DNA of 64,000 nucleotides from Planctomycetaceae bacterium (GTDB taxonomy: Bacteria; Planctomycetota; Planctomycetia; Pirellulales; UBA1268). The notes beneath the pieces were generated by a model. It saw nothing but the letters and a program-made list of their open reading frames with translations, was not told the DNA's origin and ran no database searches. This document shows, one piece after another, positions 16,666 to 54,703 of this stretch (the stretch's first letter is position 1; every line of letters begins with the position of its first letter). The stretch covers positions 62,001-126,000 of the forward strand of contig CANFQO010000003.1 of NCBI GenBank assembly GCA_947449135.1. Reading direction: 5' to 3'. The position numbers and the translations under genes are program-made.

Positions 16666-16720
16666 TGGCAGCAACAGCCTCTACCGCCGGCCTACGACAC
16701 CCCTTGGCCAGAGCAGCTTT

Positions 16721-16868
16721 AGCGACGAGTTCGTAAGTCTAGTGAGGTAGGCGAGGGGGTCGGCGGAAGCTCGAGGAGCGTTGGGCCGCCGCGGCCCCCG
16801 CGACGAGCCCCTCCGCCGTCGGAGCGGCGGACAAAATACTTTTGCCGCCCCTGAAGCCGGTGCTACAC
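16721..16868 (+). repeat. 3'-gene hairpin repeat, subtype A, copy 1 (with extra module)
   Basis: One of three near-identical copies (the others begin at 23897 and 54585). The core hairpin at 16770-16807 has an outer CTCG/CGAG stem, then a GCG/CGC stem, then a GGGCCGC/GCGGCCC apical stem; flanking GGCGG and CCGCC can extend it. This copy alone among the A copies has a 30-bp insertion (16808-16837) carrying its own CCGCCG/CGGCGG hairpin. It lies 55 bp after the propeller-gene stop in the same orientation, and ends with the conserved GAAGCCGGTGCTACACC. Confidence 0.85.
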
Positions 16869-16916
16869 CGAAGTTCAGATGCGATCTAGAAACCAAACCT
16901 CTGGTAAAACCCGTTG

Positions 16917-20122: not shown

Positions 20123-20171
20123 CGGATCTGCGTGTCGCGCGGGATGGTGTGCACACCCGGAGTCCCCCGGC
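20123..20171 (+). repeat. 49-bp imperfect direct repeat, first copy
   Basis: Matches 20279-20327 at all but about seven positions; the last 25 bp (GGTGTGCAC.CCCGGAGTCCCCCGGC) differ at one base. In this copy the final CCCCCGGC forms the left arm of the terminator of the cytochrome gene. Confidence 0.75.
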
Positions 20172-20278: not shown

Positions 20279-20327
20279 CGGATATGCATGGCACGTGGGA
20301 CGGTGTGCACCCCCGGAGTCCCCCGGC
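20279..20327 (+). repeat. 49-bp imperfect direct repeat, second copy
   Basis: Second copy of the sequence at 20123-20171, just downstream of the 3' end of the opposing RNase III gene. The T-tailed right arm of the hairpin is not conserved here, so it is not a terminator for plus-strand transcripts. Confidence 0.72.
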
Positions 20328-23896: not shown

Positions 23897-24013
23897 ACCG
23901 ACGAGGTGGTACACCTGGAGACGTCGGCGAGGGGGTAGGCGGAAGCTCGAGGAGCGTTGGGCCGCCGCGGCCCCCGCGACGAGACTTTTGCCGCCACCGA
24001 AGCCGGTGCTACA
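23897..24013 (+). repeat. 3'-gene hairpin repeat, subtype A, copy 2
   Basis: Shares the core of copies 1 and 3, with the hairpin at 23946-23983, followed by ACTTTTGCCGCC and the terminal GAAGCCGGTGCTACA. The conserved left flank (CCGACGAG..GTACACCTGGAGA) aligns with the other A copies. It lacks the 30-bp module of copy 1. It lies in the same orientation as the upstream pdxJ. Confidence 0.87.
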
Positions 24014-28196: not shown

Positions 28197-30962
28197 GTGG
28201 CCAACGACGACCTCCTGCGCCGAGATGTCCGACTACTGGGCGACATGCTGGGATCGGTGATCATCGAGTTGGCTGGCCAGGAGGCTTTTACGCTTGTTGA
28301 GGAGGTTCGGGGTCTCGCCCGTGACCGCCGCGCCGGCCGGCACGATGCCGAACGGTCACTGGCCGCCCGGATCGAGTCGCTCGACACGTCGCAGGCGGAG
28401 AGTGTCGCCCGGGCCTTCAGCATCTACTTCGACCTGGTCAACATCGCCGAGGATCGGCAACGGGTGCGGGTGCTCCGCGAGCGGGAGCAGGAGCGGTCGC
28501 CGCAGCCGATCGGCGAATCGCTGGCAGCCGGCATCGCCGAACTCAAGTCCCGCGGCCTGTCAGCCGCCGAGGTTCAGCAGGCGCTCGACCGGCTCTCGAT
28601 TGAGCTCGTCTTCACGGCCCACCCCAGCGAGGCCAAACGCCGGTCGATCCGAGCGAAGCTGCGACGGATGCGGCACAGTCTGCAGGAACTCGACCGCGCC
28701 GATCTACTGCCCCGCGAACGGTCTACCCATCAGAGCGACCTGCACAGCGAACTCGATGTGCTCTGGCAGACGGAGTTTCTGCGGCCCACGCGGCCGACCG
28801 TGCTCGACGAGGTGGAGCGTGGATTATCGATCATGCCCCGGCTCTGGGAGGCGGTGCCGCAGGTCCATGCCTCGCTCCGCCGCGGCCTCGCGGAATGCTA
28901 TCCCGGCGAGTCGTTCCGCATCCGGCCGTTTCTCACCTTCGGATCGTGGATGGGAGGAGACCGCGACGGAAATCCATTCGTCACCGCCGACGTCACGGAG
29001 CGGACGCTCCTGCGGCTGCGGTCGGAGGCGATCGACCGCCATCTCGATTGGTGCATTCAGTTGCATGATCTGCTCACGATCTCGCTGCACGCCGCCCGCG
29101 GTGCCCATCCGCTCGTCGAACGGCTGTCCACGCTCGCCGCCGCCTGGCCCGACCTGGCCGCCGCACTCGAACCACTCGCTGCCCACGAGATCTACCGCCG
29201 GTGGGTTCGCATGATCCGCTTCCGGCTGGAGCGGTCACGCACCGCCAGCCTCAATGAGCCTGCGGCGGCAGCCGCATATGCGTCGGGAAACGAGCTCGAG
29301 GCCGACGTCGCCCTGCTGGTCGAATGTCTCGGGGAGGACCACGGTCTCGCGGATCATTCACCCGCCACGCACTGGCTCGATCTGGTGCGGACCTTCGGCC
29401 TCCACATGACGCGGCTCGACGTCCGGCAGGACGCGCGGGCCTACGGCGACATCATGGGGGAAGTCCTCGCCGCTGCCGGTCGTGTGGCCGATGCCGCGAC
29501 GTTTTCCACACTCGATGAATCTGCACGCCGGGCGTTGCTGGTCAGTTCCATGCCCGCGGCGGAATCACCGGCGTCGGCCTCTGTCTGCAACATCGCCGTG
29601 GACGGCCTGGTCCCGCTCGCCAGCGACACGCTTCGCCTCTTCGAGGTGCTCCACCGCGCGATTGCCCGCTTCGGCCCTGAGTGCCTGGGGGCGGCCATCA
29701 TCAGCCTCACCCGCAGCCCGGCCGACGTGCTTGCGGTGCTCTGGCTGTGGCGGTGGGCCCGCACGCGGGCCGCCTCTCACGGCGAAGCGGTGGCGGCGAG
29801 CGACATCGACATCTCGCCGCTCTTCGAGAAGATCAACGATCTCGCGCATGCTCACGACACGCTCGCCGCGATCCTCGACGAACCCTGCTACCGTGACCAT
29901 CTGGCCGGCCGGGGCCATCGTCAGATCGTGATGGTCGGCTATTCCGACAGCACGAAGGACGGCGGCTATCTCGCGGCTTGTTACGGACTCCAAACGGCGC
30001 AGGGCAACCTGCATGCGGCTGCCAAGGCCAGAGGCGTGAGCCTGACATTCTTCCACGGCCGGGGCGGTTCGCTCGGTCGGGGCGGTGGGCCGGCTGCCCG
30101 GGGCATCCTCTCGCTCCCCCCGGAAACGCTCGATGGCAGCCTCCGGCTCACCGAGCAGGGTGAGGTGCTCGCAGAGCGGTACGACGACACCGAGGTCGCC
30201 TGCCGCCACCTGGAGCAGGTGTCGTGGGCCACATTAGTGGCATCGAGCGTCCGCCGCAGCGAACCGCGGCGGGAGTGGACCGACGTCGCCGCCCGGATGT
30301 CCGAGCGGTCGTGGACCGTCTACCGCGAGCTCGTCGACCAGCCAGGCTTCATTCGCTATTTCTCCGAGACGACGCCGATCGATGACATCGAGACGCTGCC
30401 GATCGCGTCGCGGCCGTCCCGCCGTCGCGGCGAACGCACGCTCGACGACCTCCGCGCGATCCCATGGGTGTTTGCCTGGACGCAGAGTCGCTGCATGATC
30501 CCTGCCTGGTACGGCCTCGGCACGGCGCTCGTCGAGGTGAAATACGACGATCGCCATGCCTGGCAGAACGTCTGCGACATGTACCGGCAATGGCCGTTCT
30601 TCCAAGCCACGATCGACAACGCCACGCTGGCGCTGGCGAAGGCCGACATGTACATCGCGCAGCGCTACTCAGAGCTCGTCGATGATGCCGACGTCCGTCG
30701 CCCGATCTGGCAACGGATCGCCGCGGAACGCGACCGCACCCGACAGGCGATCCTCGACATCGTCGGCGGCGGGGAGCTTCTCGCCACCACGCCCTGGTTC
30801 CAACGGTCTATTGAAGCACGCAATCCATACATCGATCCTTTGAATCTGATCCAGATCGAATTCATGCGTCGCCGCCGCCAGCAGCCCGATGACGAATCGC
30901 TCCGCGATCTCCTGCGGCTCTGCGTGCAGGGCATCGCATCCGGCATGCGCACGACGGGATAG
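28197..30962 (+). CDS. ppc: Phosphoenolpyruvate carboxylase
   Basis: 921 aa, the usual length. It carboxylates PEP with bicarbonate to oxaloacetate, replenishing the TCA cycle. Diagnostic sites are VFTAHPSEAKRRS (catalytic H142), GSWMGGDRDGNPFVT, VMVGYSDSTKDGGY (active Lys at about 586), and FHGRGGSLGRGGGPA (the mobile Arg/Gly loop). The C-terminus ends GIASGMRTTG, the family tail that closes the active site. The GTG start is supported by AAGG 7 nt upstream. A short intrinsic terminator and then a hairpin repeat follow. The next gene, phosphofructokinase, also belongs to central carbon flux. Confidence 0.97.
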   Translation: MANDDLLRRDVRLLGDMLGSVIIELAGQEAFTLVEEVRGLARDRRAGRHDAERSLAARIESLDTSQAESVARAFSIYFDLVNIAEDRQRVRVLREREQERSPQPIGESLAAGIAELKSRGLSAAEVQQALDRLSIELVFTAHPSEAKRRSIRAKLRRMRHSLQELDRADLLPRERSTHQSDLHSELDVLWQTEFLRPTRPTVLDEVERGLSIMPRLWEAVPQVHASLRRGLAECYPGESFRIRPFLTFGSWMGGDRDGNPFVTADVTERTLLRLRSEAIDRHLDWCIQLHDLLTISLHAARGAHPLVERLSTLAAAWPDLAAALEPLAAHEIYRRWVRMIRFRLERSRTASLNEPAAAAAYASGNELEADVALLVECLGEDHGLADHSPATHWLDLVRTFGLHMTRLDVRQDARAYGDIMGEVLAAAGRVADAATFSTLDESARRALLVSSMPAAESPASASVCNIAVDGLVPLASDTLRLFEVLHRAIARFGPECLGAAIISLTRSPADVLAVLWLWRWARTRAASHGEAVAASDIDISPLFEKINDLAHAHDTLAAILDEPCYRDHLAGRGHRQIVMVGYSDSTKDGGYLAACYGLQTAQGNLHAAAKARGVSLTFFHGRGGSLGRGGGPAARGILSLPPETLDGSLRLTEQGEVLAERYDDTEVACRHLEQVSWATLVASSVRRSEPRREWTDVAARMSERSWTVYRELVDQPGFIRYFSETTPIDDIETLPIASRPSRRRGERTLDDLRAIPWVFAWTQSRCMIPAWYGLGTALVEVKYDDRHAWQNVCDMYRQWPFFQATIDNATLALAKADMYIAQRYSELVDDADVRRPIWQRIAAERDRTRQAILDIVGGGELLATTPWFQRSIEARNPYIDPLNLIQIEFMRRRRQQPDDESLRDLLRLCVQGIASGMRTTG

Positions 30963-30979
30963 TTTGCTTTACGCGAAAC

Positions 30980-30997
30980 ACGGCATCGTGCCGTTTT
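30980..30997 (+). terminator. Short rho-independent terminator after ppc
   Basis: The stem ACGGCA/TGCCGT with a TCG loop is directly followed by TTTT, 17 nt after the stop. A second small hairpin (AAACC, TTC, GGTTT) follows at about 31004-31018. Confidence 0.62.
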
Positions 30998-31067
30998 CGC
31001 TTGGAAACCTTCGGTTTCTGGTGCTACCCATCGCAATCCTACGATGACACTTCTGCAATCACGATGA

Positions 31068-31147
31068 CGCGAGCCGGGATCGGCGGAAGCTCGAGGAGCC
31101 TTGGGCGTATCCTCGCCCCGGCGACGAGACTTCTGCCGTCCCGGCGA
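31068..31147 (+). repeat. 3'-gene hairpin repeat, subtype B, copy 1
   Basis: Diverged relative of the A copies: identical GGCGGAAGCTCGAGGAGC left arm and CGACGAGACTT right arm, but the interior is replaced. The hairpin at 31090-31128 has CTCG/CGAG, GCC/GGC and GGGCG/CGCCC stems with a TATCCT loop. The internal loops (AGGA/GA and TT/C) are the same as in subtype A. It lies after ppc and before the phosphofructokinase gene. Confidence 0.8.
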
Positions 31148-31190
31148 TGAATCACTCACGGACTGCCCCTGTTTTCCAAGGGACTCACAG

Positions 31191-32513
31191 ATGACTACAG
31201 CCGCCGAACTCGTCGTGAAAACGCTCGGCTCCTGCCGGATCGATTCGCCGCTCAAGCCGATGCTTGAATCCCGCCGCACCACCGTGCACTACGTGGAAGA
31301 AGACGACCGCGTGCTCTTCCACGACACGGCCACCCTCGTGCGCGAGAGCGGCTGCACGCTCGACTCCCTGCCCGGATTCGAGCCGGCAGGCCCGCGGCGA
31401 AAGATCTTCTTTGATGCCTCCAAGATGCGGGTGGGCATCGTCACCTGCGGTGGACTCTGTCCGGGCATCAACGACGTGATCCGCGGCATCGTCATGGAAC
31501 TCACGTTTCACTATGGCGTCAAGAAAATCCACGGCTTTCGTAACGGCTACCAGGGCTTCGTGGCGAAGTATGCCCACGACGTGGTCGAACTCACACCGAG
31601 CGTGGTCAGCAACATCGACGAGGACGGCGGCACGATTCTGGGCACGTCGCGGGGCGGGCAGGATCCGGAGGAGATCGTCGATTGCCTGGAGCGGATGAAC
31701 ATCAACGCCCTGTTCGTGATCGGCGGCGACGGCACGCTGCGGGGGGCCATGCAGATCGCCGCCGCGGTCGCCGCCCGCGACGGGAAGATCGCCGTCGTCG
31801 GCATCCCCAAGACGATCGACAACGACATTCCTTACATCGACCAGAGCTTCGGCTTTCAGACGGCCTTCGGCGAGGCCACGAAGGCGATCCAGTCGGCCCA
31901 CGTGGAGGCCAAGGCGTCGCCCAACGGAGTGGGACTCGTGAAGCTGATGGGCCGTCACTCGGGCTTCATCGCCTGCTACGCGTCGCTTGCCGAACCTGAC
32001 GCCAACTACGTGCTCATTCCAGAGGTGCCCTTCCAACTGGACGGCAAATGCGGGCTGCTCGAGCACCTACTGGAGCGAGTCAAACGGAGCGGCCACGCGG
32101 TGATCGTGGCGGCGGAGGGCGCCGGTCAAGACCTGATCGCCGATTCCGGCTGTGGCCACGACGCGTCGGGCAACCGGAAACTGGACGATGTTGGACTGCT
32201 GCTCAAGACGAAGATCGCCGAGCACTTCGCGGCGGCGGGCGTGGAACTCAATCTCAAGTACATCGATCCGAGCTACCTGATCCGCAGTGTGCGGGCCAAC
32301 CCCTATGACAGCGTCTACTGCCTCCGGCTCGCGCAGAACGCCGTCCATGCGGCCATGGCTGGGCGGACGGAGATGGTGGTGGGCCGCTGGCATGGCCGGT
32401 TTGTGCACATCCCGATCCCGCTGGCGGTCAGCCACCGCAACCAGGTGGCCCCCGATGGCGACCTCTGGCTTTCGGTGCTCGAGGCCACCGGCCAGCCCCG
32501 TTTGTTCTGCTAG
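31191..32513 (+). CDS. 6-phosphofructokinase, plant/trypanosome-like ATP-type
   Basis: 440 aa from MTTAAELVV, with AAGGG upstream; an earlier in-frame codon lies inside the hairpin repeat and is rejected. It phosphorylates fructose 6-phosphate to the 1,6-bisphosphate. Seen motifs are GIVTCGGLCPGIND (phosphate donor), IGGDGTLRGA (residues 177-186), IPKTIDNDIPYID (205-217, catalytic Asp), GRHSGFIA and EVPFQLDG. The Gly at position 181 (GGDG) points to ATP rather than pyrophosphate, whereas PKTIDND is the long-family form shared with plant ATP-PFKs, trypanosomal PFK and PPi-enzymes. The donor is therefore inferred. It is flanked on both sides by hairpin repeats. Confidence 0.92.
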   Translation: MTTAAELVVKTLGSCRIDSPLKPMLESRRTTVHYVEEDDRVLFHDTATLVRESGCTLDSLPGFEPAGPRRKIFFDASKMRVGIVTCGGLCPGINDVIRGIVMELTFHYGVKKIHGFRNGYQGFVAKYAHDVVELTPSVVSNIDEDGGTILGTSRGGQDPEEIVDCLERMNINALFVIGGDGTLRGAMQIAAAVAARDGKIAVVGIPKTIDNDIPYIDQSFGFQTAFGEATKAIQSAHVEAKASPNGVGLVKLMGRHSGFIACYASLAEPDANYVLIPEVPFQLDGKCGLLEHLLERVKRSGHAVIVAAEGAGQDLIADSGCGHDASGNRKLDDVGLLLKTKIAEHFAAAGVELNLKYIDPSYLIRSVRANPYDSVYCLRLAQNAVHAAMAGRTEMVVGRWHGRFVHIPIPLAVSHRNQVAPDGDLWLSVLEATGQPRLFC

Positions 32514-32532: not shown

Positions 32533-32668
32533 GAACGGCATTTCGACTGTTCAAGGAGCCGGGGGTCGGGGCAAGCCGGAGCGAGTAGGGCTATCCTGCC
32601 CCCGAGTCGGAGCCCCTTCGCCGCCGGGTCGGCGGATGGAGTCGTGTCACCGCCCCTGGCGGCGTGCA
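32533..32668 (+). repeat. 3'-gene hairpin repeat, subtype B, copy 2 (with extra module)
   Basis: Begins 19 bp after the phosphofructokinase stop. It shares with copy B3 the left part (TTCGACT.TT.AAGGAGCC, then GGGGGTCGG and GCCGGAGCGAGT) and with B1/B3 a TATCCT loop, here between GGGC and GCCC. A 34-bp module (about 32613-32646, beginning CCCCTTCGCCG and containing CGGCGGA) is absent from B3 but resembles the module of A1. The rest of the gap to the next gene (32669-32783) shows nothing further. Confidence 0.78.
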
Positions 32669-38330: not shown

Positions 38331-38442
38331 GAGCGGCTCGTTCGACTCTTGAAGGAGCCGGGGGTCGGTGGAAGCCGGAGCGAGTCGGCGTATCCTGGCC
38401 TCGAGTCGGAGGCTTTCACCGCCCCCGGCGGCTTGCGCCGTT
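38331..38442 (+). repeat. 3'-gene hairpin repeat, subtype B, copy 3
   Basis: Starts about 40 bp after the reductase stop, same orientation. GGTGGAAGCC (38367-38376) pairs with GGCTTTCACC (38411-38420) in a 10-bp stem with one G-T pair, enclosing the TATCCT loop region. The extra module of B2 is absent. It is flanked by a 23-bp imperfect direct repeat (38286-38308 and 38478-38500) and by an exact 15-bp repeat (38280-38294 and 38508-38522). Confidence 0.8.
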
Positions 38443-54584: not shown

Positions 54585-54703
54585 AGCGACGATTTGGTAG
54601 ACCTGGAGAGGCAGGCGAGGGGGTCGGCGGAAGCTCGAGGAGCGTTGGGCCGCCGCGGCCCCCGCGACGAGACTTTTGCCGCCCCCGAAGCCGGTGCTAC
54701 ACC
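54585..54703 (+). repeat. 3'-gene hairpin repeat, subtype A, copy 3
   Basis: Core identical to copies 1 and 2, hairpin at 54634-54671; the left flank GCGACGATTTGGTAGACCTGG aligns with the other two copies. No extra module. It ends with GAAGCCGGTGCTACACC. It lies between convergent genes, in the orientation of the upstream MocA gene. Confidence 0.87.

Follow-up and report, generated by a model that had tools for sequence, protein, structure and literature searches.

The window analysed here, a 64,000-nt stretch of DNA from a Planctomycetaceae bacterium of the order Pirellulales, carries on its forward strand a gene for phosphoenolpyruvate carboxylase (PPC, 28197-30962; PF00311, E 3.9e-284) followed by a gene for phosphofructokinase (PFK, 31191-32513; PF00365, E 6.9e-66), and the gap between the two is occupied by a long hairpin, designated B1, at 31073-31145 on the same strand. 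Just 5' of B1 on the forward strand, three small hairpins recognised by folding form a companion unit (30973-31046, comprising 30973-31000, 31005-31017 and 31029-31046). Similar companion units were also found upstream of B copies at two other loci, L030 and L056, where the 5' half of the main hairpin precedes the unit. Alignment with loci L088, L089 and L130 indicates that the forward-strand intergenic stretch 30963-31176 is absent in species whose PFK is ~95% identical. The closest relatives of the PFK are found in lake planctomycete MAGs; it is also 66-71% identical to the enzymes of Frankia, Pseudonocardia and Catellatospora, and an old lateral transfer is, judging from sequence similarity, a possible origin of the gene.

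Five further copies of the hairpin, assigned to subtypes A and C, were located on the forward strand of the window. The A copies comprise an element at 16710-16889 whose right inverted repeat, AGATGCGATCTAG, spans 16877-16889 and into which an extra hairpin has been inserted at ~16809-16838, a hairpin at 23923-24005 (81.0 bits) and a hairpin between convergent genes at 54611-54693 (88.2 bits). The C copies comprise a hairpin downstream of PFK at 32553-32656, which scores weakly (E 0.6) because of an extra inserted hairpin, and a hairpin between convergent genes at 38352-38433 (64.1 bits) that retains remnants of both inverted repeats. The gene contexts given here and below are based on an ad hoc gene caller. 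The extra hairpin (CCCCTCCGCCGTCGGAGCGGCGGAC and similar sequences) occupies the same 3'-strand point in A and C copies (16809-16838 and ~32610-32640), and a different insert was observed at that point in the related genomes G062 and G017. The window also contains two 49-nt repeats (20123-20171 and 20279-20327) that form a separate pair, unrelated to the hairpin, with GCCGGGGGACTCCGGG-type palindromes.

The first-pass annotation had described a 39-nt hairpin at 31090-31128, the sequence and layout of which match the present analysis exactly, and had noted that a 3-bp stem reads GCG/CGC in three A copies (located at 16770, 23946 and 54634) versus GCC/GGC in B1, which is confirmed. The extent was underestimated, since the 39 nt form the inner half of the full B1 hairpin, which has the form GCCGGGA-TCGGCGGAAGCTCG ... 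CGAGACTTCTGCCG-TCCCGGC, folds at -53.2 kcal/mol (z -5.43; mean of dinucleotide shuffles -34.1) and is matched at 31067-31150 (101.9 bits) by R1, a covariance model built from seven copies. In the apical stem of the A copies, the proposed full pairing of GGGCCGC with GCGGCCC is impossible; this stem comprises 6 bp with a 3-nt loop. The proposed AGGA/GA internal loop is better resolved as a GA bulge and a GA facing GA with the covarying pair G31095:C31125 between them, and the copies alternate between CTCGAGGAGC/GCGACGAG and CTCGACGAGC/GCGAGGAG at this pair. A better model for the inner module at 31090-31128 (forward strand) thus consists of CTC, the GA bulge, an S:S' pair, the GA/GA tandem and the 3-bp stem (31098-31100 with 31120-31122), in which the third pair covaries, followed by TT versus C and by an apical stem (31103-31107 with 31114-31118) closed by the loop TATCCT (31108-31113). 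A kink-turn, considered for the GA/GA tandem, is rejected because the covarying pair sits between the bulge and the tandem. No Rfam 15 family matched the window at gathering scores, and none matched 30960-31200 at E <= 5.

The change in the 3-bp stem had been read as covariation due to selection on the folded form, for which the original four sequences by themselves constitute weak evidence. A larger alignment was searched for stems that vary without preserving pairing, and this pattern did not occur. In 56 distinct sequences, which are paralogous copies and not independent, pairing is kept in 92.1% of the cells, compared with 80.3% for shuffles and 42-53% for slid controls, two-sided changes are seen in 23 of 28 pairs as against 9.2 in shuffles, and the covariation score is 0.282 as against 0.098 in shuffles. 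The third pair of the 3-bp stem is paired in all 30 copies of the own genome that are ungapped there (G:C 22, C:G 7, A:T 1; shuffles 18.5), the 39 further rows being mostly gapped at that pair and mostly of the other subtype, and in 51 of 69 copies from relatives (shuffles 31.0). The loop TATCCT is present in 34 of the 35 C copies, in which the stem switches between GGG/CCC, GGC/GCC and AGC/GCT and a position beside it stays mismatched.

The hairpin is the core of a MITE-like mobile element. The related genome G061 carries 20 near-identical copies at unrelated sites, 19 of which share both ends exactly as a TA-bounded unit of 160 nt with the layout TA-GAGCGCATCT ... hairpin ... AGACGCGCTC-TA; in G061 the unit is short, multi-copy and free of ORFs, with GAGCGCATCT and AGACGCGCTC as terminal inverted repeats, and always lies in YTAR. 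More diverged versions of the same inverted repeats flank the A copies of the own genome and some of its C copies, and no recognisable inverted repeats were found around its B copies. The A and B subtypes distinguished by the first-pass annotation give an incomplete picture: all of the subtypes appear to be versions of a single mobile element family. When the unit inserts at a TAG or TAA stop codon, TAG is recreated (TA plus G), and at one occupied site the gene of the unoccupied relatives ends in CTCTAG or GTCTAG. Empty orthologous sites exist, among them the PPC-PFK gap, which measures less than ~20 nt in species with a ~95% identical PFK and ~228 nt here. The TA at both ends of the 19 copies in G061 is consistent with a TA duplication at insertion, the empty sites being too diverged around the junction to demonstrate it.

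In the own genome of 3.69 Mb, model R1 has 89 matches with E <= 1 and 75 with E <= 0.001, and it detects the hairpin in 62 of the 72 genomes of the family, representing 11 of 12 genera. It gives no match in ~197 genomes from other families of the order, and the repeat is thus restricted to one family of the Pirellulales, a lineage of lake planctomycetes. Viral contigs gave no match to the B-core pattern, and the open-access papers searched contain no account of the repeat. Copy numbers are underestimates, since the repeat breaks assemblies, as seen in the MAG G062, several contigs of which end inside or right beside the element (L305-L311, L334-L337).

The positions of the copies relative to genes are biased. 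The 72 placed copies of the own genome include 32 in convergent, 37 in co-directional and three in divergent gaps, as compared with 8, 29 and 7 gene pairs, respectively, in the window, so that convergent gaps hold 32 of 72 copies versus 8 of 44 gene pairs (Fisher p 0.005). In the co-directional gaps of the own and related genomes, 51 of 77 non-independent copies are in sense orientation, with the folding strand transcribed, and 26 are antisense (p 0.006). Among 30 genomes examined, 13, belonging to four genera, hold a hairpin of the same (sense) orientation between a gene which, from reading its ORF, is presumably sugar-isomerase-like and a GFO/IDH/MocA oxidoreductase gene, and about four more hold partial or degenerate copies there; at this site alone, 14 of 28 pairs show a two-sided change (shuffles 6.8; 0 of 500). 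The gaps upstream of PFK in other species also hold hairpins, mostly in sense orientation. In G017, another repeat, GCATTCCCCGCGCTTGCGCTTGGGGCTTCCTGACG, often lies directly 5' of the hairpin (L340, L237 and neighbouring loci).

The hairpin and its flanking arms diverge to very different extents. In the covariance-model set, the mean pairwise divergences of the 5' arm, hairpin and 3' arm are 0.37, 0.07 and 0.43 for the A copies; the corresponding values are 0.65, 0.14 and 0.54 for the C copies, 0.50, 0.07 and 0.38 for the copies of G017 and 0.58, 0.14 and 0.62 for those of the genome G012. Across the older copies overall, arms are 34-65% diverged and hairpins 2-14%. At one within-genus orthologous site, the hairpin is identical at 84 of 84 positions while the flanks differ at 40 of 499. 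Even decay would be expected of a repeat free of selection, and the intact hairpin between decayed arms therefore supports selection on the fold. Together with the pairing data and the internal mismatches that have stayed uncorrected, it upholds the earlier proposal that the folded form, whether RNA or single-stranded DNA, is under selection. We infer that the hairpin is retained after insertion as an RNA element.

Other processes could produce some of these patterns. Overwriting of the cores by gene conversion or homing, which would place identical cores within diverged arms, is possible, albeit on the less likely side. It agrees with A cores that are 2% diverged within arms that are 34-38% diverged, a figure biased by the selection of cores with a regular expression, for which the covariance-model values above are preferred. 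It also agrees with orthologous sites at which a C-type core in one species corresponds to a long B-type core in another inside similar flanks, and with another at which a different subtype lies inverted. Such differences of subtype or orientation between species indicate that replacement or repeated insertion also occurs, and they fit either of these as well as simple retention; an independent insertion at a preferred site would moreover look like replacement. The C cores of a single genome, however, are not identical (14% mean divergence) and yet covary, a sign that they have long been maintained independently. In a DNA palindrome, covariation can itself come in part from replication, when the polymerase switches template within the inverted repeat and the stems covary without selection on the fold. 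Parsimony on the alignment counts 80 two-sided changes, only 22 one-sided paired (wobble) changes and 64 pair-breaking changes, and by our tally roughly 45 of the two-sided ones, such as G:C to C:G, cannot pass through G-U, as one-step copying of an arm predicts. These many transversion-type changes leave room for template switching as a contributing cause. As the whole explanation it is unlikely, since copying would erase mismatches, whereas the GA bulge and the GA/GA loop persist, as does a C:T, T:C or A:C mismatch, and it leaves both the conserved TATCCT loop and the much better conservation of hairpins than of arms unexplained. A function as bidirectional intrinsic transcription terminators would suit the enrichment between convergent genes, in one case with 6 nt on each side, and is improbable nonetheless, since no more than 5 of 81 copies have a run of four Ts after the stem, both sides counted, and the hairpins also lie between co-directional operon genes, 25-57 nt 5' of the starts.

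A REP/BIME system mobilised on single-stranded DNA by RAYT, a Y1 tyrosine transposase, is very unlikely. The intergenic palindromes, the inverted pairs ~140 nt apart, the GTAG or GGAG that many A and B copies have at their foot and the single RAYT-like gene of the own genome would accord with such a system, whereas the C copies lack the GTAG foot and the recent unit is bounded by TA and carries inverted repeats. A search for Y1_Tnp in the own and 23 further genomes of the family, with the flanks of the Y1 genes scanned for hairpins, revealed that these genes do not follow copy number, G017 having 115 hairpins and no Y1 gene and G005 no hairpins and four Y1 genes, and that a confident hairpin accompanies only one of 20 Y1 loci, at a distance of ~1 kb. 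RAYT/REP is thus rejected as the main explanation, as Y1 genes neither flank nor track the hairpins. A RAYT-like tyrosine transposase gene at locus L029 (1195-1878) scores 60 bits against NCBIfam REP_Tyr_transpos, below the cut-off of 80, and no such hairpins lie near it.

Searches with transposase models, at inverted-repeat sites and among recurrent neighbours revealed no transposase with matching ends. Exact TAGAGCGCATCT sites without a listed hairpin match were fetched and contain hairpin copies or fragments and no transposase, so that an autonomous element was not found at them, and an all-against-all comparison of neighbouring ORFs yielded only apparent host families. The repeat resembles IS630-type MITEs in being short and non-coding, with TA at both ends and YTAR (CTAG) sites. 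IS630 elements prefer CTAG sites. Unlike IS630-type MITEs, the repeat has a long, conserved and structured core, and a search of six genomes for DDE_3 (IS630/mariner) found none in the own genome (G000, 96% complete) or in G062 and one in G061. On the searches made in these genomes and at the TAGAGCGCATCT sites, an IS630 transposase is rejected as the mobiliser.

Planctomycetes are reported to contain REP-type repeats (PMC3733652), and the present family shares with REP/BIME and RAYT systems (PMC3733652, PMC2817692, PMC8266576) the dispersed intergenic palindromes, some of them in inverted pairs, and the stem variants that preserve pairing. It differs from them in that its hairpin is 70-130 nt long, as against 20-40 nt, and structured with a conserved internal loop, and in that it forms a TIR-flanked mobile unit of 160 nt to which RAYT is not linked. 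'TIRtrons', i.e. TIR repeats linked to tyrosine transposases, are similar inverted-repeat families that may include self-complementary tracts, but their inverted repeats flank a Y1 gene (PMC3733652), and no Y1 gene is flanked here. Also comparable are bacterial MITEs that fold as RNA and influence the transcripts of their neighbours, transcribed foldback repeats beside genes of which PMC3733652 gives a general description; the present family differs in that its hairpin persists as the inverted-repeat arms are lost to decay, with covariation at orthologous sites. The repeat thus resembles REP and MITE foldback elements in its working and fails the tested defining features of REP/RAYT.

The family-wide hairpin, its covariation, the mobile unit, the retained core and the positional bias are established, and the data suggest that the folded hairpin does something useful for the adjacent genes. 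On balance, the repeat is probably a MITE-like element of ~160 nt, the arms of which decay while the hairpin is kept by selection and acts at the RNA level. Such an element would spread into YTAR sites, often stop codons, with a transposase presumably helping in trans; after insertion, the arms would decay, and selection would keep the long hairpin, including the conserved internal loop, with compensatory changes in the stem. At the 3' ends of genes and in operon gaps, the transcribed hairpin may act as a barrier that protects the ends of upstream mRNAs or, alternatively, may set the relative output of the neighbouring genes. A more specific and rather doubtful version is that the mobile element delivers an RNA module, the hairpins planted at stop codons and in operon gaps becoming a shared binding element. 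The arms would again decay and the core would be kept, or periodically overwritten by other copies, and a putative sequence- and structure-specific recognition via the GA/GA and TATCCT loops could extend to dozens of genes; if true, a transposon would have installed a genome-wide post-transcriptional regulatory signal. Bacteria commonly carry small hairpin repeats, usually without it being clear whether the host benefits from them or they are junk. In the present family, recent whole copies, old copies with decayed arms, empty sites and an operon site shared by four genera are all available together, which makes it testable whether a selfish repeat has turned into a regulatory RNA element, and likewise whether selection or templated mutation underlies the covariation of DNA palindromes.
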